Shown here piece after piece: positions 7,258 through 36,815 of a stretch of 64,000 nt of DNA. A program made the position numbers and the translations under genes. This DNA comes from Bacteroidales bacterium (GTDB lineage: Bacteria > Bacteroidota > Bacteroidia > Bacteroidales > ML635J-15). The notes below the pieces were generated by a model. The model was not told the origin of the DNA. It did no database searches and saw nothing but the letters and a program-made list of their open reading frames with translations. Location of the stretch: contig QKHS01000012.1 in the NCBI GenBank assembly GCA_003249955.1, positions 186,001 to 250,000 of the forward strand, given 5' to 3'. Position 1 is the stretch's first letter; every line of letters begins with the position of its first letter.

Positions 7258-7688
7258 AGCATTATTCCTCTTTTTTAGCGAGATTACAATATTACAATTT
7301 TTTTTTAATTTTCGGAATGATTATTTTCAAATTCTATTTAATGTGAAAATTTTATACTGATACTTGTCAATATCTCTGACTCCATGGCAAACGCATACTT
7401 TGTCAAGGTTTACACAACAAAAAGAATCACAACAAGAATTTATTACAGATTAAAAAAGGCTAATAGTTAATTATTACCAGACATTCCAGCCGCGAATTTA
7501 CGAATTAAAGTTCAGTGCTATGAATTGAACTAAGGTTGGCAAGCTCGCCAAACATCGGGCTGAAACTTTAGCTTTGTTAAACATATTTTGATCCATGGCA
7601 AACGCATCTAAACTTTTATAAATTAAACGAGATTGTAATAGTCAAGCTAAGTACCTAAACAGTATTCGAAGCTCCGTGCGCAGGCCAT

Positions 7689-7867
7689 GGCAAAACGGCG
7701 GGAAGAACAGGCAGTGAGACCAAAACAAATAGAATCGTGTCGAGCCGATATATCGTTTCTAAAACAAATGATTCAAAAGGCATAAGGTATTGGCATTTGT
7801 TTTAGACCAAGGTCGATATACAATTCTTTTGTTTTGGTCGAGGCGTGTCGGGTAGCATTGTTTTGCC
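7689..7867. repeat. Long nested imperfect palindrome inside copy A
   Basis: Three perfect inverted pairs are nested: GGCAAAAC (7689-7696) with GTTTTGCC (7860-7867); GACCAAAACAAA (7718-7729) with TTTGTTTTGGTC (7828-7839); CTAAAACAAATG (7759-7770) with CATTTGTTTTAG (7794-7805). The whole 179-base segment could form a long hairpin. It is GC-richer than its surroundings. Confidence 0.75.
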
Positions 7868-7879
7868 TTGATTTCTTTG

Positions 7880-7907
7880 CAACTTTCTTTATTAAGAAAG
7901 AAAGTTG
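7880..7907. repeat. Short perfect-armed hairpin next to the long palindrome
   Basis: CAACTTTCTT...AAGAAAGAAAGTTG forms a stem of about 10 pairs with one bulge. It directly follows the long palindrome, and the two together probably belong to the same dispersed structure. Confidence 0.55.
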
Positions 7908-8304
7908 TTTAAAAATAAATACTGTTCTGTAAAATCATTTCTGATGTTTTTGTAACATGTTTAATTGACTATTTGCAGATAACGTAATGCAAAAGCTCAG
8001 CTATAACATTTGTATAATTAGATGAGTTTGCCCTGTATTTTGATCGTCCATTGTGAATTTATTCGCGGCAAATGAAAATGAAATAACTAATGCGTTTGAG
8101 TTTGTAATGCTAACCTGCTAACCCATGTTAGACATAGCTGATAGCGATGTTATATCAGAAAACATATTATAGAATTTGCTATTCTTTATTAATCTGAAAA
8201 TGCTGTGAGCTGTTTGTAAACCAACTGTTTTACTTGTATAAAATGGGTTAGTGCAAGCATCAAGCAAATAGTATGCGTTTGCCCTGTCTCTGACTCAGCT
8301 TTTT

Positions 8305-8336
8305 TTTGACAGTCTTTAGTCTTTTACTATATTTGC
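8305..8336 (+). promoter_or_regulatory. Bacteroidota-type promoter of lysS
   Basis: TTTG at 8305-8308 is followed by a 19-base spacer and TATATTTGC at 8328-8336, an excellent match to the TTTG/TAnnTTTG consensus. It leaves an 18-base leader before the lysS ATG and starts 8 bases after the target duplication of the mobile element. Confidence 0.75.
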
Positions 8337-8354
8337 AAAAAAAATAACATTATT

Positions 8355-10085
8355 ATGGATTATATTGGATTAAGCGAACAGGAAATTATCAGGAGAGAAG
8401 CTTTAACTGAAATAAAAAAATTGGGAATTGATCCTTACCCGGCTGCAGAATATCCGGTTAGTATATATACGAAAGAAATTCTTGAGAAATTTGATGATGC
8501 AAATTTACCCGAAGAACTTAAAACGGTGTGTCTTGCAGGTCGCATTATGTCACGCAGAATTATGGGTAATGCATCTTTTGCCGAGTTACAGGACAGCAAG
8601 GGGCGTATTCAGTTGTATTTTAAACGCGATGATATTTGTCCTGACGAAGATAAAACAATGTACAATGTTGTTTTTAAAAAGTTGCTGGACATAGGTGATA
8701 TTATCGGTGTTAAAGGATTTGCATTCCGTACCCAGATGGGAGAAATTTCTGTTCATGTTACGGAATATGTAATATTGAGCAAATCTTTGCATCCGCTACC
8801 TATTGTAAAAGAAAAGGACGGACAGGTGTTTGATGCCGTTACCGACATGGAAATGCGTTATCGCCAGCGTTATGTTGACCTGATTGTAAATCCTCAGGTT
8901 AAGGACACTTTTATTAAAAGAACCAAAATTATTAATACTATGCGTCAGTTTTTCAACGAACAGGGATATCTGGAAGTTGAAACTCCTATATTGCAGTCTA
9001 TCCCGGGTGGAGCAGCAGCTCGTCCGTTTATAACTCATCACAATGCATTAAATATTCCTTTGTATCTGCGTATTGCAAATGAGCTTTATCTTAAAAGACT
9101 TATTGTAGGCGGATTTGAAGGCGTTTATGAGTTTGCAAAGGATTTTCGTAACGAAGGTATGGACCGCACTCATAACCCGGAATTTACAGTTCTCGAAATT
9201 TATGTTGCTTATAAAGACTATAAATGGATGATGAACTTTACCGAGGAAATGATTGAACGCGTTGCTCTGGCTTTGCACGGAACTACAAAAGTACAACTCG
9301 GAGACAGGGAAATTGACTTTAAACGTCCGTTTAAAAGAGTTACCATGTATGATGCAATTAAAGAACATACAGGTTACGATATCTCGGATAAAAATGAAAC
9401 AGAACTCCGCGAAATATGCAATGCCCTTGGCCTGGAAACAGATGCTGCAATGGGGAAAGGAAAGCTTATTGACACTATATTCGGAGAAAAATGCGAACAT
9501 CATTATGTTCAGCCGACTTTCATTATTGATTATCCGGTTGAAATGTCTCCGCTTACTAAAAAACACCGCTCGGTACAAGGCCTTACCGAAAGATTTGAAC
9601 TTATGGTTAACGGAAAAGAGCTTGCAAATGCATATTCGGAACTTAATGATCCTATTGATCAGCGTGAACGTTTCGAAGAGCAGATGAAACTGTCGGAGAA
9701 AGGAGATGATGAAGCTATGTTTATCGATCAGGATTTCCTTCGTGCACTGGAATATGCTATGCCACCCAACTCAGGTATGGGAATAGGTATTGACAGGCTT
9801 ACAATGTTTATGACCAATTCGCCTTCTATTCAGGATGTTCTTTTCTTCCCTCAGATGAGACCTGAGAAAAAAGCCGATGCTGTTGACGAAAAGATTTTTA
9901 CAGACTTGGGCATAGATGAAGAATGGGCTAAAGTTTTGCAAAAAGCAGGATTTACTACTCTTAAACAGTTAAAAGAAGCTAATCCCGGCAAGTTGCACCA
10001 GATATTATGCGGATGGAATAAAAAGCATAAACTGGGATTGCAGAATCCAACTCCCGAACAGGTTACAGCATGGACTAAAGCTTAA
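8355..10085 (+). CDS. lysS: Lysyl-tRNA synthetase, class II
   Basis: LysS charges tRNA-Lys. The 576-residue product has the N-terminal OB-fold anticodon-binding domain ([20 protein letters not shown]), then the class II core: motif 1 region ending [20 protein letters not shown], motif 2 [15 protein letters not shown], and motif 3 [11 protein letters not shown] followed by the usual [10 protein letters not shown] near residue 500. About 70 extra residues follow, with a helix-hairpin-helix-like segment ([20 protein letters not shown]). I have seen such a tail in Bacteroidota enzymes; its role is unclear. The stop overlaps the next ATG (TAATG), so the antiporter gene is coupled. Confidence 0.96.
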
Positions 10086-12278: not shown

Positions 12279-12978
12279 CCGGAGAGGGCTCTCTGGAAAT
12301 AGTAATCATTTAGCCTTAAAGGACAATTTTATAATTGTTTTTGTAGTTGGGAACTGTGATCCATAATCTGTAATCTGTGGTCGGTAATCGGGGTAGTATG
12401 CAGTTGCAAACGCGTTTACTGTATTGTGATCTGTTAACAATGAGTTAGTTAGCTGCTTCGCAGGTTTACCTCCTGATCTGGCCTGCAGTTTTGCCTTTGG
12501 CATTGTCCTCCGGGCTACGATTCCATGGATTGTCGGCATCGCTTTTCTGAATATTCATAGCTATGTTTTTTTATTTAACGCAGGAAGAATCTTCTCCGGA
12601 AATTTTGCCTGATCCATTATATTACATTTTGAGGACTCACTTATTTAAAAATGAAGTTGGTGTTTGGTATATTCAAAAGACTATCAAGCTGTGCTAATAG
12701 CAACATGATCGCTTTACGGCAAATGAAAATTATAAGATAAAAAACTTTTAATAGTTTGTGTTTATAGAAATTATTAAATGCTTTCACTTAAAAAATGTAT
12801 TTTATCTCGTGAAATAAAAATATTATATATATTTGAAAAATATTAATTCTGGGAATTGAAAAAGAGTAATTAATATGAAAGATAGTGAAAGCTTTAACTA
12901 ATTGAAAAATAACCGGCATTGTGGTGGTTATACAATCGTTGTGCCTCATGCTGAAAAAAACGAAATAAAACAAATAAT
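12279..12978. other. 700-bp gene-free region with repeat fragments
   Basis: I see no credible gene. At 12279-12296 there is a short hairpin (CCGGAGAG/CTCTCTGG) without a U-run. At 12656-12679 a 24-base stretch matches 20827-20850 at 21 of 24 positions. At 12716-12730 CGGCAAATGAAAAT resembles an internal sequence of the mobile elements at 8067 and 25141. The region marks the transition from core genes to the accessory block. Just before the next gene, CGTTGTGCC then AAAAAAACGAAA (12938-12965) resembles the right end of the structured element at 14605-14740. Confidence 0.5.
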
Positions 12979-24786: not shown

Positions 24787-24849
24787 TCTGAAATTTTATT
24801 CAAAAATAATATAATTTTCAATTTGCGACTGATTAATAATTGTTTACAT

Positions 24850-25208
24850 CAGGGCAAACGCATACTTTGTCAAGGGGCAATAAAACAAAAAGAATTTATT
24901 GGAGAAAAAATAATTGCTAATTATTGTCTGACAAACTAGCCGCGAATTGACAAATTTTCCCGAATAAATTTCACAATTACTATCAAAATCAGTTTGAAGT
25001 CCGGCGAACCCGCCAAACTTAATTCAGCAAGTGATACAACGAACAATTCAACGCATCGCGTTGAACTTTAATTGACTTCGTCGAGGGCTAAAGCCGTTCG
25101 TAAAAAATTCGTTAATTCGCGGCGTTGAGCTTCGGTTCGAGGCAAATGAATATGAATAACTATTGAAATTTATTGTCTGCATCAGATAAAAAGTATGCGT
25201 TTGCGCTG
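24850..25208. mobile_element. MITE-like element, copy B (359 bp)
   Basis: The left end CAGGGCAAACGCATACTTT (24850-24868) and the reverse-complemented right end CAGCGCAAACGCATACTTT (25190-25208) match at 18 of 19 positions. The flanks TTGTTTACAT (24840-24849) and TTGTTTACAA (25209-25218) form a 10-bp duplication with one mismatch. Inside, GCCGCGAATTGACAAATTTT (24939-24958) pairs with its near-complement at 25104-25123 (18 of 20). The element has no coding capacity and shares ends, inner repeat and the GGCAAATGAA...ATAACTA segment with copy A at 7383-8286. GAGGGCTAAAGCCGTT (25083-25098) also occurs at 58413-58428. Confidence 0.78.
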
Positions 25209-25241
25209 TTGTTTACAAACCATAGGCATTGTAATGTTTTA

Positions 25242-28499: not shown

Positions 28500-31400
28500 T
28501 TATTTAAATACTGTTACAGTTCCGGCGTAGGTGTAATCTTTACCGTACTTGTCTCTGAGTTTTACAACATATGTGTAAACTCCTTGCGGAACATAATCTC
28601 CTTTATCCATGTCATATCTTCCTTGCCAGTGCGTGTACCAGTCTCTTGTCTGGAATATCATTTCGCCCCATCTGTTGTAAATGGTCATCTGGTAGTTATC
28701 TTCATCAACACCAACTCCTATAGGATAGAATTCATCATTACCCGGGCTTCTGAGATTTATTGCATTCGGGAAATAAATTCTGTGATCGTCAACTATCTCA
28801 ATGTTTTTGGTTATTGTGTCAACGCAGCCTTGCTGACTGTAAACAGTTAATGTAACCGGGAATTCTCCCTGATCAAGATATGTGTGTGTAGTGTTTTGTC
28901 CTCCTGAAGTTCCTCCGTCTCCAAATTGCCATTCCCAGGCAATTGCACCTACAGAAGCATCAACAAAATCAATTTCCGGCTCAAATAGCCCTGTTGACCA
29001 CGGGAATGCATTGAATTCAGCTATAGGCCCTTCGTGAACTTTTACTGAAATCCATGCAGAGTCTTTACATCCCATTACAGTTGAAACTACTGCCATTACA
29101 TCGTAATCACCGGTTTCATTAAATACATGAGTAGGACGTTTAAGATCCGAATAGTTATTCGTTCCTGATTCAAAATCAGCAAATTCCCAGTAATATGTAT
29201 AAGTCATATTTTCGGTATTATTGTCGAATACAACCGAAAGCGGAGAACAACCTGTATAAGGAGTTCTGGTTATATGAACTTCAGGCATTGCTGATACTGA
29301 AGCTGTAATTGTAACAGTATCTCTCGGAGTCGTACATCCGTCACTTACAATTACAGTGTAATCTGTTGAGACAAGAGGACTGATGTTCAGTGTGTTGCTT
29401 GTAGTTACCTGTCCGTTACCCCAATCGTAAACATAATTTCCATCACCGCCGGTTACATTTGCAACTAAAGTAGAAACCTGGCCTTCGCAAATTGCACTTG
29501 GGGTAATTACGGATAAAGACAATGGCGGATTTACTTCAATCAATACACTTGATCCGGCAGATTGGCAACCTCTGGAGTCTAATGCTGTAACTGGATAATC
29601 AGTAGTAACCACAGGAGAAACAAGGAATGAACTTCCTGTGCCGAGACCTTCCCATAAGAATGTGTACCCCGGAACGCCTCCGCCGGCAGATGCCGATACT
29701 ATTGCCTGTTGTCCGATGCAGATAACAGAACTCTCACTTGGATATATTACGACTTCTTCCGGTGAACCGATCGGGAACTGAGTATAAACGGTACAACCAT
29801 CCTGATCCACTACGTTTACGTTATAAACTCCTGCATATAAAGTGTTGGAAAAATCAAGTTCCGTAACATCAGGGGTCCAGTTGTAAGTGTAAGGAAGAGA
29901 GCCGCCTGATACAAATATCTGAGCAAATCCGTCATTGTCACCATAACAGGTTACACCATTAAACATCACATTGTCAATCTGAAGACTTGCAGTTGCATTT
30001 ACTGTAACATTATTGCTTCTGGTACATCCGTTAGCGTCTGTAATTACAACGGAATAGGTTCCCGGTGCAAGATTTGTCAGATAATCACTTGTCATTCCTC
30101 CAGGATTCCATACATAAGTAAAACTACCTGTTCCACCTGTAATATTACTAACATAAGCAACACCGTTATTCATACCGCATGTTGCATTTTCGGTTACAAA
30201 TGTAGCAACTATCTGATTTGGCTCTCCGACGACATATGTTTCCTGAATGAAACAACCTATGTCGCTGGCATCATAAACAACAACTGTATATGATGCAGCA
30301 GTAAGATCATTAATTACAGCAGAGGTTTCCGGAATCTGAGGCCATGAATAAAAATATGCCCCGCTGCCTCCGCCTGCAGCAACCGAGATCATCCCGTTAT
30401 CACCGGCATAACAGGTTGCGTCGGTAACTGTTCCTGTTATTGTAAGTGGAGAAGGCTCGTTAATATCAATGTCAACAGATGCTGTACAGCCATTGTCGTC
30501 AGTAATTACAAGAATATAATTGCCTTCGCAAAGATTTGATGCTGTAGCCGTTCCTGCACCATTTGACCATGTGTAAATATATGGCAGGGTGCCTCCGTTT
30601 CCTAACCCGGTGGCAGCCCCATTGCAAAATCCGTAACAGGTAACGTCATTGTAAACAGATATGCTGGCTGTAAGCGGTAATGGCTCTGTAACAGCAACAT
30701 TACCAACTGCCGAACATCCGTTTGCATCTGTTACAGTTACAACATATGCTCCTTCTGTAAGATTTATTGCCAATGCTGTAGATTGTCCGTTGTCCCATGA
30801 TATAGTATTGGTAGCTGTGGAACTTGTAAAGAAGACTTCGGCTGTTCCTGTATTTTCCCCGAAACAGTTTGCGTTTACAGGATTTATATTTGTAATTACA
30901 GGGCCGTTTATATCACTTAAAGCAATTGTCTGGCTAATGCTGCAGCCGTTAAAGTCGGTAATTGTAACAGTATAATTCCCGGACTGGACATTGTTTATTG
31001 TGCTTGATGCTCCGCCTGAAGCAGGAACGGGGTTCCACGCGTACGTATATGGCCCGACTCCTCCGGTTGCACCAACAGTGACAGAACCATCTGAATTTCC
31101 GCATGTAGGCTGGGTAATATTCTGAACACTTATTCCTAAAACAGCAGGGCTGTTAATACTCGTGGAATTATAGACCTGACATCCGTTAAAGTCTGTTACT
31201 GTAATGTTATATATTCCAGCACAAAGGTTAAGTATATCCGGGGCTACTTCTGAATTTGACCATAAATAGCTATATGGGGATACACCTCCGGAAGGCATGG
31301 CAGATATTGTTCCGTCACAGGCTCCGTTACATAATTCATTCGAAGCCAGTAAACTTACATTTAGTACAGGTGGTTGGTTAATCAGAACACATGTATCTAT

Positions 31401-34400
31401 CATACAACCGTTATTATCAAGGACTGTTACACAATGTTGGCCTGCACTTAAACCAAACGGATTTGATATTACATGGCCATTATCCCATACATAATCGTAC
31501 GGAGCAGTACCACCTATAATAGTTATACTGATATCAGCATTTGAACTTCCGTTACATTGTGCGTCATTAATTGTGACATCAGCAAATTGCATAGGAGTAG
31601 GAGTGTCAACAAAAACCGAATTAGTTCCTGTACAACCATTGCTGTCATATACTGTTACTGTATGCAATCCTGTGCACAAGCTCAATGCTGTTGCAGTTGT
31701 TTGTCCTGATCCGCTCCACACATAAGTGTAAGGGGCTGTACCTCCCGATGGAGCAGCCGTAGCTGTCCCTGAGCAATCACCGAAACATTCTGTATCGGAA
31801 CTAACCATTGGAACCGTAATAAATGAAGGCGATGAAATTGTGAAATTTCTGGTAAGGAAGCAATTATAGGAATCTAAAACAATAACAGAATATGCTCCTG
31901 CACAAAGATTTGTCTGATCCGGTGCATTTATTGCCACACCGGCACCTGACCATGTATATGAATAAGGAGCTGTTCCTCCGAATACAGTAATGTCAATACT
32001 TCCGTTGCATAATCCTGAACATGTTACATCTGAAATCCCGGAAATAAGATCAACCGCTGTTGGCTCGGTCATAGTCGTACCTACTGTTGCAACACAACCT
32101 GTATTTAAATCAGTAACAACTACACTGTACGATCCGTCACATAAATTGGTAGCGGTATTGCTTGTCTGTACAGGCACTGTACTCCATGAGTACTGGAACA
32201 GTCCGCTGCCTCCGGTTACACTTACTGTAGCAGTTCCGTTACATGTTCCGTTACATGTAGGATTACTGCTGGCCGTAATTGTTGCAACCTGTGCATTCTG
32301 ATCGCTTATAGGATAAGAAACAATTTCCTGACATCCTTTGTTATCTGTAACTGTTAATATATATGATCCGGCAGGAACATTCCAGATATCCTGACTTAGC
32401 TGACCGCTGCTCCATGCATAGAAATATGGAGGAGAGCCTCCTCCTACAGTAACATCAATGGCTCCGTCAGATTGTCCGCAGTTTGAAGGCGTAATAGCAT
32501 CATTTACGAAAATTGCCGGCCCGTCTGTCATTACAGTACTTGCTGAAATTGAACACCCGTTATCATCAGTTACTGTTACTGCAATATTTCCTGCACATAA
32601 GCCGGTTGCAGTTTGAGAACTTTGAAGATTACTCCATGTATAAGTAAACGGAGCAGTACCGCCGGCTATGTTTGCAAGAGCACTTCCGTTGCAGGCTCCG
32701 AAACAATTAATCTGAGGTGCAACAATATTTAAACTCAAGCCTGCCGGCTGTCCGATTATTACGCTGGCAGTTACAGAACAACCTATTGCATCACTTATAG
32801 TCACATTATATGACCCGGGACACAGGTTTGTCGCAGTAGGATTGGTTTGCGCAGGAACAGTACTCCATGTATAATTGTATGGAGCAGTTCCTCCGGCAGC
32901 AGAAACTGTTGCCCAACCATCACAGGTTCCGTTACAACTCAAATCGCTGTATGCCGAAATAATAGCGCTCGGGCCGGCAACGTTAACCACATTGGCAGAA
33001 CCGGTCTGGCTACACCCATTGTCGTCGGTTACTGTTACTGTGTAAGGATTTCCTGCCGCAGTAAGCCCGGTATTGGTTTGACCTATAGTGTTGCCACCTG
33101 CCGACCATCCCCATGAATAAGGAGATGTCCCTCCGACAGGAGTCGCTGTTGCTGTTCCGTTTGCCATTCCGCAATTGGCCGGAGTTGTGGACATATTTAA
33201 AAGCATTGCTGCCGGCTCTGCAATATTGAAATTAAGGCTTGTGGTACATCCGTTATTGTCTGTTACCAATACAGAATGAGATCCACCACATAAATTCAGG
33301 TTGTTGTTTGAATTTGGATTTAATCCGCCGGACCAATTATAAGTGTAAGGTGCTGTACCTCCTGAAACACTTATCTGAGCTTCTCCGTCACAATCTCCGT
33401 TACAGGTAACAGGAACTGTGCTTACAAGGTTTGCAGATAGTGCTGTAGGTTGGGTAAGAGTTGTACTGTGAGTTGCTGTACAGCCAAAATTATCTGTTAC
33501 AACAACTGAAATTCCACCTGCAGGTAAGCCGGTTACAGTACTTGTTAATCCGGCAATAGTTTGATTAAAGCCATTGGACCAGTTATATGTATAATTCGGA
33601 GAACCTCCTGTTACTGTAGCTGTTGCTGTTCCGTTAGCACCTCCGGCACAGGACACGTTTGTTCCGGTTACATTTACCGTAATTGCGCCTACGTCACCTA
33701 CAAAGCCACTGGCTGATGCAGTACATCCGTTATTGTCTGTAACGGTAACAGTATAATTTCCGCTTGGAATACCGGTAGCTGTAACCGCATTCTGAGGAGG
33801 AGCCGTATTCCAGATATAGCTTGCATAAGGTGTTGTGCCTCCGGTCGGATTAACGGTAATGGCTCCGTCTGATTGTCCGCAGTGTGCATTCACTATGTTG
33901 ATTGTGCTTGCTGAAAGAGCAGCAGGTTGTGTAATATTAACGCTTCCTATAACTGTACATCCTGACATTGTAACAGAAACATTATGTATTCCGGCACACA
34001 GATTCGTAGATGTTTGTGTTATCTGGGTATTATCCCAAAGATAAGTAAAAGGTCCTGCCCCTACGGGTGTTACTGTTGCAGACCCGTTACAAAGTCCGTT
34101 ACAGCTCACCTGAGATACTGCAGAGGTCGTTATTGTAAACGGAACTCCGCCATCAACAATACTAATACTGTTTGAAGATGTACAACCGGCACCGTCAGTT
34201 ACAGTTACGGTATAGCTGCTTGCAGCCGCGGTAATTGAACTTGTTATGGGGCCGTTGCTCCAGTTGTATGAAGGAGGAGGGGTGTGCCCTGATACTACTA
34301 CAGATGCGGTTCCGTTTGACATTCCGCATGTAGCATTTGTGGATGACATTGTGAGAACCATAGCAGGAGGATCTGTAATACTGAAATTTTCTACTGTGTA

Positions 34401-36815
34401 GCAGGCGGCATTTGAACCGTCAGCAACAGTTACTGTATATGAACCATCACATAAACCTCCGGTGGATTGGTTATTAGGAGTTGTTCCTGCCGAATAATTG
34501 TAAGAATATGTTGAACATCCTGATGCATTAACTGTTGCTGTTCCGTTACAGTTCCCTGCACAATTAGGATTGGTTACAACTACATTTGCTGTTGGAGTAT
34601 TTCCTGTATTGTTAACAACTGTGCTTGCAGAAGCTGTACATGAATTGGCATCTGTTACCGTAACAGAGTAAGGGCCGGCACACAGAGAGTTGATTGTTTG
34701 TGATGTGCCGCCTGAAGACCATGAATATGATGAGAAAGCTGTTGTAGTTGTCGCAGAACCATTACAAAGTCCGCAACCGGCTGGTGTCGGAGTAATTGCC
34801 GGAGCAGGTTGCGGATACACGGTAATATTCTGACTGTATGACTGAACACAACTTCCTGCAGTTACTTGTAACGTAACTGAATATGTTCCCGGTGTTGACC
34901 AGGTGATTCCTGTAGGATTCTGTGTTGTGGATGTTGCCGGCGAACCTCCTGCAAAAGTCCATAAATAAGTCTCCCCGGGAATAACTGTTCCTGTGTGGGT
35001 GAAATTAAATGAATGTCCGCTGAAACACTGGTTTCCGTTGTACGTAAATGCAGGGTCTGGTACCGTAACAGTATTAAGGTTCACAGTTCCTGTTGCAGTA
35101 CACCCTGTGGCATCAGTTATGTTTACTGTATAACTTCCTCCTCCGAGTCCTGTGAAATTATATGAGGCTACTCCGGTTTGGGTTGACGCCCCAAGTTGAA
35201 TATTGTAATTAGGCACCCCTCCTGTACCTGTAATTAAAACAGATCCGTTATTCGGGCCTCCTGCACATGTCGGATGAGTAATGCTGGAATTAAATCCTAC
35301 AGCGGTTGGTTGCGTTAATACAACGGTTTCATTATATTCACACCGGCCTATTGCATCTGTAATTGTAAGAGAATATGAGCCAGGTGCAAGCCCGCTTAAA
35401 TTATTGCTTGTCGATGTGAAAGCTCCCGGCCCGACCCAGTTGGTAGAATATGGAGCAGTTCCTCCATTTATGCCGGAAACAGTAATAGTCCCGTTATTTG
35501 CACCGTTACATGTAATATTGGTGCTTGTAACAGTAGCATCAATACCATTAATTGTAAAATTAAGACAGTTGCCTGCTGAGAAATTGCTGCAAATGTCATT
35601 TACCCCGCCGTTTAACACGCAAATAGAGTAATTACCATCATTAGATAAAAAGTCTCCCAACTCCAGAGTCCAGAGGTCGTCATAAAAAGTTCCTGCGTAA
35701 GTTCCTGCTGCACCTGCTTCACAAACGGCACTCCATGCATCAACAATATTGTACGTGCCGGCCGGACCGGAAATAACAAAGTCGGAAGGCTGAACGCTAC
35801 CACACCATAATCTCTCCGAGAATTGAAGTGTTATGGATGAAGACCCGCAAACAGGCGGATATACAATAGATTCCATGTATGGCGGCACATTGTCTATAAT
35901 AGATGCTGTACCTCCAAAGCTTATGCTATATCCATACTGAGTTGACGAAAAATTACTGACATTTACCACATATGTATTGCCTGCAGTAACATTTAAAAGA
36001 GCATTGTCGTTAACATCGCTTGCAGAACCGCAGGTAAGTGATGAACCCCCGTTTGCCCCTGTAGTCCCGGATGTGGCAGACCAGTTACAACTGATCTGAA
36101 CAGATGCAGGATTGCTTGCAATTGTATTGCAGTCAGCGGAGGTAATGTTATAAACTGCCCAATCGTAATCATCTGATGATTGATTTGGTGTAATATTAAA
36201 AGATGTATTTCCTGAAGTGGTAGCAGTAAATGTGTACCATACATCATTACGTTCACCGCTTAACATACAGTTTGCAGGACATCCGCCTGTTGTCGGAATT
36301 TCATTCGGATAGTTTCCGGTTCCTACATAAGATGCGGCTGTTGAATAACTGCTTGAACAAAGCGGAATTGCCCCCAGACAGTCCTGAACAGTAGGAGGTG
36401 GGAGCGAACAATATGCAAGAACTCCGGCATTAACAGTTGTGCCGCTACAATAGAACTGATAAATTCCGATACGGAATGTTCCGGCATTTGGAGCAACGAA
36501 TACAACTTCTGATCCTAAACCGCAATGATCGTCATTGTAAAATCCTGCTACAGCAACTCCTGCATTGTTATATACTTCTAACTGAGTGTCAACAGAGTTT
36601 GTTCCACCTCCCTGGCAAAAAGAAAAAATGAAGGTCTCTCCTGGATATGTTGCCACAAACGTATAATAAGTGTGTGTGTTTACACTTACAGTTTGAAATG
36701 CTCCGTTCGGAGACAAAGCACCTGCAAGAGTAGCTCCTGTACAAACGGCAAAAACTTTGTTGTTTATTGAAAACATCAAAGTTGTGAGAACCGCAAAAAG
36801 TAATATTTTTCGCAT
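28500..36815 (-). CDS. Giant SprB-repeat surface protein with type IX (type B) sorting domain
   Basis: The 2771-residue protein has a signal peptide (about 1-23). A cysteine-rich N-terminal region (to about 435) contains two bacterial pre-peptidase-like beta domains (TYYTFVATYPG; DVWYTFTATTSG). About 24 SprB-type repeats of 75-80 residues follow to about 2375, interrupted by one PKD-like domain. Each repeat has the scheme TCxGxxxG...GGTAPYxYxW...GxYxVTVTDxxGC. Two Ig/PKD-like domains and two PKD domains come next, then a C-terminal sorting domain (IYFPNAINLRSPGNDEFYP ... YNRWGEMIFQT ... PQGVYTYVVKLRD). This ending is the gliding-motility-associated type B domain, so export by T9SS and surface attachment are expected. 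Role as adhesin or gliding protein is inferred. It is the last gene of a leftward cluster with an ECF sigma factor. Confidence 0.92.
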   Translation of the reverse strand: MRKILLFAVLTTLMFSINNKVFAVCTGATLAGALSPNGAFQTVSVNTHTYYTFVATYPGETFIFSFCQGGGTNSVDTQLEVYNNAGVAVAGFYNDDHCGLGSEVVFVAPNAGTFRIGIYQFYCSGTTVNAGVLAYCSLPPPTVQDCLGAIPLCSSSYSTAASYVGTGNYPNEIPTTGGCPANCMLSGERNDVWYTFTATTSGNTSFNITPNQSSDDYDWAVYNITSADCNTIASNPASVQISCNWSATSGTTGANGGSSLTCGSASDVNDNALLNVTAGNTYVVNVSNFSSTQYGYSISFGGTASIIDNVPPYMESIVYPPVCGSSSITLQFSERLWCGSVQPSDFVISGPAGTYNIVDAWSAVCEAGAAGTYAGTFYDDLWTLELGDFLSNDGNYSICVLNGGVNDICSNFSAGNCLNFTINGIDATVTSTNITCNGANNGTITVSGINGGTAPYSTNWVGPGAFTSTSNNLSGLAPGSYSLTITDAIGRCEYNETVVLTQPTAVGFNSSITHPTCAGGPNNGSVLITGTGGVPNYNIQLGASTQTGVASYNFTGLGGGSYTVNITDATGCTATGTVNLNTVTVPDPAFTYNGNQCFSGHSFNFTHTGTVIPGETYLWTFAGGSPATSTTQNPTGITWSTPGTYSVTLQVTAGSCVQSYSQNITVYPQPAPAITPTPAGCGLCNGSATTTTAFSSYSWSSGGTSQTINSLCAGPYSVTVTDANSCTASASTVVNNTGNTPTANVVVTNPNCAGNCNGTATVNASGCSTYSYNYSAGTTPNNQSTGGLCDGSYTVTVADGSNAACYTVENFSITDPPAMVLTMSSTNATCGMSNGTASVVVSGHTPPPSYNWSNGPITSSITAAASSYTVTVTDGAGCTSSNSISIVDGGVPFTITTSAVSQVSCNGLCNGSATVTPVGAGPFTYLWDNTQITQTSTNLCAGIHNVSVTMSGCTVIGSVNITQPAALSASTINIVNAHCGQSDGAITVNPTGGTTPYASYIWNTAPPQNAVTATGIPSGNYTVTVTDNNGCTASASGFVGDVGAITVNVTGTNVSCAGGANGTATATVTGGSPNYTYNWSNGFNQTIAGLTSTVTGLPAGGISVVVTDNFGCTATHSTTLTQPTALSANLVSTVPVTCNGDCDGEAQISVSGGTAPYTYNWSGGLNPNSNNNLNLCGGSHSVLVTDNNGCTTSLNFNIAEPAAMLLNMSTTPANCGMANGTATATPVGGTSPYSWGWSAGGNTIGQTNTGLTAAGNPYTVTVTDDNGCSQTGSANVVNVAGPSAIISAYSDLSCNGTCDGWATVSAAGGTAPYNYTWSTVPAQTNPTATNLCPGSYNVTISDAIGCSVTASVIIGQPAGLSLNIVAPQINCFGACNGSALANIAGGTAPFTYTWSNLQSSQTATGLCAGNIAVTVTDDNGCSISASTVMTDGPAIFVNDAITPSNCGQSDGAIDVTVGGGSPPYFYAWSSGQLSQDIWNVPAGSYILTVTDNKGCQEIVSYPISDQNAQVATITASSNPTCNGTCNGTATVSVTGGSGLFQYSWSTVPVQTSNTATNLCDGSYSVVVTDLNTGCVATVGTTMTEPTAVDLISGISDVTCSGLCNGSIDITVFGGTAPYSYTWSGAGVAINAPDQTNLCAGAYSVIVLDSYNCFLTRNFTISSPSFITVPMVSSDTECFGDCSGTATAAPSGGTAPYTYVWSGSGQTTATALSLCTGLHTVTVYDSNGCTGTNSVFVDTPTPMQFADVTINDAQCNGSSNADISITIIGGTAPYDYVWDNGHVISNPFGLSAGQHCVTVLDNNGCMIDTCVLINQPPVLNVSLLASNELCNGACDGTISAMPSGGVSPYSYLWSNSEVAPDILNLCAGIYNITVTDFNGCQVYNSTSINSPAVLGISVQNITQPTCGNSDGSVTVGATGGVGPYTYAWNPVPASGGASSTINNVQSGNYTVTITDFNGCSISQTIALSDINGPVITNINPVNANCFGENTGTAEVFFTSSTATNTISWDNGQSTALAINLTEGAYVVTVTDANGCSAVGNVAVTEPLPLTASISVYNDVTCYGFCNGAATGLGNGGTLPYIYTWSNGAGTATASNLCEGNYILVITDDNGCTASVDIDINEPSPLTITGTVTDATCYAGDNGMISVAAGGGSGAYFYSWPQIPETSAVINDLTAASYTVVVYDASDIGCFIQETYVVGEPNQIVATFVTENATCGMNNGVAYVSNITGGTGSFTYVWNPGGMTSDYLTNLAPGTYSVVITDANGCTRSNNVTVNATASLQIDNVMFNGVTCYGDNDGFAQIFVSGGSLPYTYNWTPDVTELDFSNTLYAGVYNVNVVDQDGCTVYTQFPIGSPEEVVIYPSESSVICIGQQAIVSASAGGGVPGYTFLWEGLGTGSSFLVSPVVTTDYPVTALDSRGCQSAGSSVLIEVNPPLSLSVITPSAICEGQVSTLVANVTGGDGNYVYDWGNGQVTTSNTLNISPLVSTDYTVIVSDGCTTPRDTVTITASVSAMPEVHITRTPYTGCSPLSVVFDNNTENMTYTYYWEFADFESGTNNYSDLKRPTHVFNETGDYDVMAVVSTVMGCKDSAWISVKVHEGPIAEFNAFPWSTGLFEPEIDFVDASVGAIAWEWQFGDGGTSGGQNTTHTYLDQGEFPVTLTVYSQQGCVDTITKNIEIVDDHRIYFPNAINLRSPGNDEFYPIGVGVDEDNYQMTIYNRWGEMIFQTRDWYTHWQGRYDMDKGDYVPQGVYTYVVKLRDKYGKDYTYAGTVTVFK

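Follow-up and report, generated by a model that had tools for sequence, protein, structure and literature searches.

The window, that is the whole stretch of 64,000 nucleotides analysed here, contains two elements, copies A and B, which are very probably non-autonomous MITEs moved in trans by a transposase of the ISAs1 family; copy A is a nest of one such element inside another, and its inner member holds a hairpin module that occurs in several kinds of carrier. The MITEs themselves are real, of a known kind and assigned here to ISAs1. They are set apart by the nesting and by a module that has seemingly changed carrier, the latter being the unusual part.

Nested structure of copy A, and copy B

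The features of the two copies, in window coordinates, are as follows.

7373-7382, no strand: left 10-bp target duplication of the outer element of A, TCTCTGACTC (direct reading and script assertion)
7383-8286, plus strand: composite A, made of an outer ISAs1-type MITE (452 bp once the insertion is subtracted), the nested element and the nested target duplication
7383-7399, plus strand: left terminal inverted repeat of A, CATGGCAAACGCATACT (inverted-repeat pair I3)
7584-7593, no strand: left 10-bp target duplication of the nested element, TATTTTGATC
7594-8035, plus strand: nested ISAs1-type element, 442 bp, ends CATGGCAAACGCATCTAAAC and, as reverse complement, CAGGGCAAACTCATCTAATT
7679-7878, plus strand: conserved hairpin of the module (scoring 174 bits against covariance model R1; copy G000:C65:193679-193878)
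7868-7919, plus strand: second hairpin, at the end of the module (inverted-repeat pair I1)
8036-8045, no strand: right 10-bp target duplication of the nested element, TATTTTGATC (this target is single-copy in the C58 paralogue)
8270-8286, minus strand: right terminal inverted repeat of A, as reverse complement CAGGGCAAACGCATACT (inverted-repeat pair I3)
8287-8296, no strand: right 10-bp target duplication of A, TCTCTGACTC, exact
24840-24849, no strand: left target duplication of copy B, TTGTTTACAT
24850-25208, plus strand: copy B, a 359-bp ISAs1-type MITE with outer-type ends CAGGGCAAACGCATACTTT and, as reverse complement, CAGCGCAAACGCATACTTT
25209-25218, no strand: right target duplication of copy B, TTGTTTACAA

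Composite element A (904 bp) has 17-bp ends that are complementary at 16 of 17 positions (94%). With the like ends of copy B, this bears out an earlier note on this DNA, which had proposed a MITE-like family with clear inverted ends and, at copy A, an exact 10-bp duplication. What did not stand was its description of copy A as one 904-bp element; the nested insertion and the structured module had escaped it. The end core GCAAACGCAT is present five times in the window, compared to 0.15 expected from shuffles, and it was the fifth copy (7598-7607), which belongs to no end of A or B, that led to the recognition of the nested element. Since TATTTTGATC flanks 7594-8035 exactly on both sides, copy A consists of a 442-bp element inserted into a 452-bp one. 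The ends of the nested element have nearly the same letters as those of a complete insertion sequence (IS) in a genus-mate, locus L119, the left end differing from the L119 end at one place within the first 19 letters.

The earlier note had proposed a search for empty sites in related strains and for further copies in the genome. For the nested element, the empty site is confirmed at the base level: a paralogue of the outer element on another contig of the same genome (C58:1293-1634) has TATTTTGATC once, uninterrupted. Leaving gaps aside, 246 of 269 aligned positions of this paralogue agree with the outer element. The outer element is more than 100 bp longer at the right than this paralogue, which has no visible target duplication of its own. 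The empty site of the outer element was judged by gap length only, because the neighbour protein is just 72-83% identical in the genus-mates, from which no base-level empty site was obtained. In 9 of 25 genus-mates, the fetched flank contained the upstream neighbour gene. Between this neighbour and the gene at 8355 the window has a gap of 1097 bp, 914 bp of which are the element plus one duplication, and the gap measures 220, 234, 235, 235 and 238 bp in five of the nine relatives (gaps are subtractions of listed coordinates, and the match begins at residue 2 in two genomes). The other four syntenic relatives have, however, longer gaps of 382, 395, 410 and 930 bp.

No open reading frame of at least 100 aa in the window listing overlaps 7383-8286 or copy B, in agreement with the earlier statement that no transposase is encoded. 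A promoter and terminator scan of 7300-8400 gave five promoter-like sites, compared to 4.8 in shuffled sequence, and no terminator-like site; being at the shuffle level, it lends no support to transcription of this region. Elsewhere in the window, a single open frame of 2771 codons covers 28500-36815 on the minus strand.

Copy B has its terminal repeats at 24850-24868 and 25190-25208, and its flanks (TTGTTTACAT and TTGTTTACAA) agree at 9 of 10 places, so that its limits, its length and its own duplication are as first described. Complete or partial repeats of a 77-bp piece of its interior (25047-25123), 90-95% identical, are found on contigs C19, C58 (inverted) and C13 (inverted) of the same genome, G000, which indicates that the interiors of these MITEs are mosaics.

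End family and its probable transposase

We collected 52 distinct end pairs from the window, 40 fetched stretches and 84 stretches of a collection scan, with a span of up to 620 bp, a limit that excludes copy A; pairs short of flank were dropped. The elements so delimited are 125 to 539 bp long. Their flanking 10-mers agree at 10 of 10 places in 21 pairs and at 9 of 10 in 7, giving 28 pairs at 9/10 or more, compared to 0 of 260 shifted-position controls, one of which reached 8. Transposition, which had been argued from the two copies of the window, is thereby upheld on a larger sample, although 17 of the 52 pairs, with flanks agreeing at four places of 10 or fewer, count against it.

A search for the end sequence beyond the window, also suggested earlier, was productive. 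With one mismatch allowed, GGCAAACGCATACTTT was found in 30 of 149 genomes, the own genome included, with 59 copies in the genus-mate G009, 34 in G019, 20 in G020 and 8 in G024. The reversed control pattern matched in 15 genomes, with at most two copies each, and many single matches to GGCAAACGCATACTTT therefore mean little. In a collection of 257 billion bases, the 19-mer end was found in 84 stretches, where chance would give about 2 (an arithmetic figure that assumes equal base use). The same 19-bp end is present in two Legionella species, and in Psychrobacter records it borders 125-bp MITEs with exact 10-bp duplications (L152, L175, L182, L188, L206 and L210). In G019, a 211-bp ISAs1-type MITE lies within a decayed PF01609 match with nine stops and 28.6 bits (L128, G019:C97:5864-6412).

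Full-length IS with the same ends, which the earlier note had recommended looking for, were found at three loci, none of them in the window's assembly. L119, in G019, is a complete IS of 1236 bp with ends CAGGGCAAACGCATCTAAA and CAGGGCAAACGCATCTAAT and the exact duplication ACTAGGATCT. Its open reading frame, 362 aa from the first chosen M, encodes an ISAs1-family transposase (NF033564, E 2.3e-115) that also matches PF01609 (DDE domain) and PF13808, and is the only one that was tested against Pfam. L134, in a Serratia marcescens record, is a complete IS of 1213 bp with the exact duplication TATCATCGAG and one end exactly CAGGGCAAACGCATACTTT; L179, in a gammaproteobacterial MAG, is complete at 1254 bp, with one exact CAGGGCAAACGCATACTTT end and without duplication. 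The other ends of L134 and L179 differ from CAGGGCAAACGCATACTTT at 4 and 3 of 19 places, and the NF033564 E-values of the three complete elements are 2.3e-115, 1.5e-115 and 1.9e-115. A further element, L130, is bounded on either side by the 14-base core and has no duplication; its ISAs1 E-value is 1.3e-108. The MITE ends are thus common to autonomous IS, the nested type at both ends of L119 and the outer type exactly at one end of L134 and of L179; in L119 and L134 an ISAs1 transposase lies between such ends together with an exact 10-bp duplication.

Within the genus, ISAs1 transposase matches were obtained in 4 of 26 genomes, two of them partial, and none of the four has the exact outer end ...CATACTTT. 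That end was found on complete IS in gammaproteobacterial records only, at one end each, and an autonomous partner having it was not found within the genus. In ten stretches from G009, G019 and G020, mostly unpaired ends, no transposase was recognised when the open reading frames were read by eye. The window's own assembly, a draft in 101 contigs, gave no PF01609 and no ISAs1 transposase match. Given this number of contigs an ISAs1 copy may be unassembled, and a transposase in the same genome is no defining trait of MITEs; since none was found in the assembly, it is probable that copies A and B are now silent, unless a transposase comes from outside.

The earlier guess of an IS4-superfamily transposase came close, but the complete elements encode ISAs1-family transposases. 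Were the elements instead MITEs of another group of the superfamily (IS4Sa, ISH8 or IS231, of the strict IS4 family), ends beginning with CA and duplications of about 10 bp would be accounted for as well: in the passages available from the IS4-family survey, where the word ISAs1 does not occur, IS4Sa has CA ends and duplications of 8-10 bp, ISH8 CAT ends and 10 bp, and IS231 CAT ends and 10-12 bp (PMC2266710). We nevertheless regard such an origin as very improbable, because three complete elements that bear CAGGGCAAACGCAT at one end or at both match ISAs1 with E values around 1e-115, followed by L130 as a fourth. In addition, among 18 PF01609 matches scanned in four genus-mates, which include the decayed gene hit by a MITE at L128, an own CAGGxCAAACGCAT end was found only in L118 and L119, both ISAs1. 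No strict IS4-family (YREK) element with these ends was seen among the PF01609 matches of five genomes.

We infer that an ISAs1 transposase was the mover here. A DDE transposase of this family would act in trans, recognise the CAGGGCAAACGCAT ends and leave a 10-bp duplication. Copy A very probably took shape in two steps, the outer element inserting next to the gene at 8355 and then receiving a second element, whose ends (CATGGCAAACGCATCTAA) are closely related to its own. This inner element holds the hairpin module, which is commoner in elements with long direct repeats and is present also in a MITE of the ISL3/ISAon1 type.

The hairpin module and its carriers

Twenty-five copies of the module are known in the window's genome, 24 by model search plus L013, and 7679-7878 is one of them. 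The model R1 was built from 17 copies, including that of the window. In the 17-copy alignment the module forms a long irregular hairpin of 59 pairs, paired in 97.6% of 1003 cells, a measure that is favoured by the derivation of the structure from the same alignment. Double-sided changes affect 15 pairs and are seen in 44 cells, compared to 10.2 in shuffles and 0 to 6 in slid controls; on one measure, that of further pair types, 52 of 500 shuffles matched the alignment. Thirteen examples from 11 genomes have fold z values from -1.9 (a 70-nt form) to -7.4 relative to dinucleotide shuffles, and either strand of the window stretch folds well (z -4.7 and -9.0). As read from alignments and folds, stem sequences differ between genomes yet stay paired, and internal-loop letters (GGCGGG..AGC and GAGCGGG..GAAGC) and a tail, TTGATTTTTTT, recur. 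Because pairs and loop letters are kept and stem letters are not, we lean towards a module kept as folded RNA or single-stranded DNA, two states that compensatory changes alone do not separate. Pairing could also be maintained if one arm of a quasi-palindrome were corrected against the other.

With the covariance model, the module was detected in 14 of 100 genomes, the own one included, and, with strict filters and few candidates scored per genome, in 2 of 296 genomes from an even draw of the phylum, one being the window's own. No Rfam 15 family matched at gathering score over the whole window, and in E-value mode the best match of copy A (E 0.067) fell far short of the gathering score of its family. 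Minimal forms of 70-72 nt were seen in other families of the order (L228, L240, L239, L274 and L230), with one stem, a loop of constant letters, a T-rich tail and a second hairpin.

Being palindromic, multi-copy and intergenic, the module resembles the REP-type repeats of RAYT (Y1 tyrosine) transposases, and Y1 transposases are present in 9 of 9 genomes searched. However, no Y1 gene adjoins the module in the window's genome, where five Y1 matches come no closer to a module than 3.07 kb (2.8 kb in G039), and at 70-300 nt the module is longer than REPs, for which the part of PMC3733652 available gives 20-40 bp. A RAYT/REP origin was rejected and has, in our view, hardly any chance of being correct.

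Carriers were classified for 79 of the 81 known module copies, from 14 genomes, two matches (G018 and G039) being left out. In the window's genome, 15 of 25 copies are bounded on both sides by ends like GGATCAAGCAAAATTTCTG, with up to 4 mismatches, and 5 on one side only. In 9 of the 15 two-ended ISL3 carriers the 8-bp flanks agree at 7 or 8 places, one of these being a T-run. A full ISL3 partner is present in the same genome (G000:C6:5229-6639, 1411 bp), with an ISAon1/ISL3-type transposase (NF049917, E 2e-159; PF01610, E 1.1e-55) and no clear duplication. Elements of this type differ from those of the window in their ends, GGATCAAGCAAAATTTCTGGGGG, and in duplications of 8 bp as opposed to 10 bp. 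On the minus strand of the window, around 12440-12622, we read a decayed and truncated ISL3/ISAon1-type copy, with the end GGATCAGGCAAAATTTCCG at 12597-12615 (2 mismatches) and then an apparent 5' part of the module. ISAs1-type carriage is seen in the window copy with two ends, in L009 with one and in L010 with a weaker one (3 mismatches); it amounts, however, to three copies in one genome, and two clear ends are on the window copy only. By these tests, 32 of the 79 copies have no recognised carrier.

Long direct repeats surround 27 of 76 copies at E <=1e-6 (the 79 minus three short of flank), in 9 of 14 genomes and 4 genera, and are mostly 36-277 bp long. In an earlier, looser scan they surrounded 29 of 65 copies, compared to 2 of 120 random positions, the controls being from other loci and partly from other genomes. 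At least 4 of these 29 are doubtful: L019 and L261 match over 24 bp (E 6.6e-4), and L221 and L234 are artefact-like, with repeats that look like a hairpin or a second module copy. Modules lie inside direct repeats of 83-211 bp, 90-99% identical, at L219, L242, L224, L236, L233, L253 and L259, and in several such copies the repeat reads as a gene end or a gene start.

These repeats could be unrelated tandem duplications rather than target duplications, as may be suggested by an identity that falls to 79% in some, by the four doubtful cases, and by an automatic search that gave no consistent pair of inverted ends at the repeat borders. The recurrence of the repeats at the stricter threshold across genera makes this unlikely, as does the precedent of IS1634 and IS1549, reported to make direct repeats of 8-514 bp, for which the 2008 survey states that a mechanism had yet to be modelled (PMC2266710). 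A second alternative is that the module is itself a mobile element inserting into MITEs. Homology between carriers stops close to the module, by our reading of the alignments, and the excess of direct repeats around it in the looser scan would fit. In the clear cases, though, the repeats lie beyond the module by 36-265 bp, as they would if the moving unit had been larger; in L014, L027 and L278 they lie outside the ISL3-type ends of the carrier, and none was found inside ISAs1 or ISL3 carriers. A search for a module-specific gene, limited to Y1 transposases, found none. Independent movement of the module is, on these grounds, quite improbable.

The long-repeat carriers are perhaps MITEs of the IS1634 type. 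Near the border, 10 of 22 such carriers have, by eye, CTGACTT, CTTACTT or CTGACCT. IS1634-family transposases are present in G024 and G020, and in G024 the sequence CACTGGGACACCC is common to a carrier, L245, and to the end of the IS1634 element at L125. No long repeat was seen around three IS1634 genes, two of which have short flanks. The IS1634/IS1549 group resembles these carriers by its long, variable flanking repeats (PMC2266710, as far as available) and has transposases in the genus, but the link to the module carriers is an end resemblance in few copies.

A tree was made from 30 module copies: 9 from ISL3 carriers, 3 from ISAs1 carriers (L010 by virtue of its weak end) and 18 of the 24 long-repeat-only copies, L219, L221, L224, L236, L237 and L238 being left out and the doubtful L234 kept. 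The nine ISL3 carriers form one branch (98/94) among long-repeat carriers, and the carrier labels need 4 changes on the tree, compared to 10.7 when shuffled. Most inner branches are weak, 20 of 27 being open, and the tree is rooted at its midpoint. The ISAs1 rows form no supported group, so that one or more captures are possible. The tree suggests that the module has changed carrier; on the simplest reading, long-repeat carriers would be its old home, and ISL3- and ISAs1-type elements would have captured it later.

Relation to known elements and meaning

The window elements are like ISAs1 IS (NF033564) in their CAGGGCAAACGCAT ends and 10-bp duplications, seen in records of the same genus and of gammaproteobacteria; they are unlike them in that A and B lack a transposase and the window's assembly has no ISAs1 match. 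According to the passages available, the bacterial MITEs MITEAba12 (PMC6382973) and QMITE2 of Coxiella (PMC10969869) are also short, with IS-like inverted ends, short duplications and foldable interiors, but they belong to other IS families, and those passages describe no structured core common to carriers of three families. In the same partial sources, TIMEs (PMC4133298) are non-autonomous elements that likewise nest and shuffle parts, but are of the Tn3 type, and BOX, RUP and SPRITE insert into one another (PMC10969869), but are pneumococcal and not ISAs1. Among literature passages on ISAs1 and MITEs, none describes an ISAs1-derived MITE; the portion available of PMC5756416 mentions three submitted MITEs and does not give their parents. 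No description of the module was found in open-literature titles, abstract starts and passages.

MITEs are usually taken as shrunken IS, whose interiors have little meaning. Here, one MITE interior, on which a pressure to keep the fold is evident, is present in carriers that belong to at least two transposase families and probably to three. A set of elements flanked by long repeats is added as well. That the module is a functional structured nucleic acid which has switched between MITEs belonging to three transposase families that are not related, and which benefits its carrier, is a tentative proposal that we hold with considerable doubt. If the module is functional, it could for example end transcription, spare the neighbouring gene or aid transposition, and selection on MITEs would then extend beyond their ends alone to their cargo.
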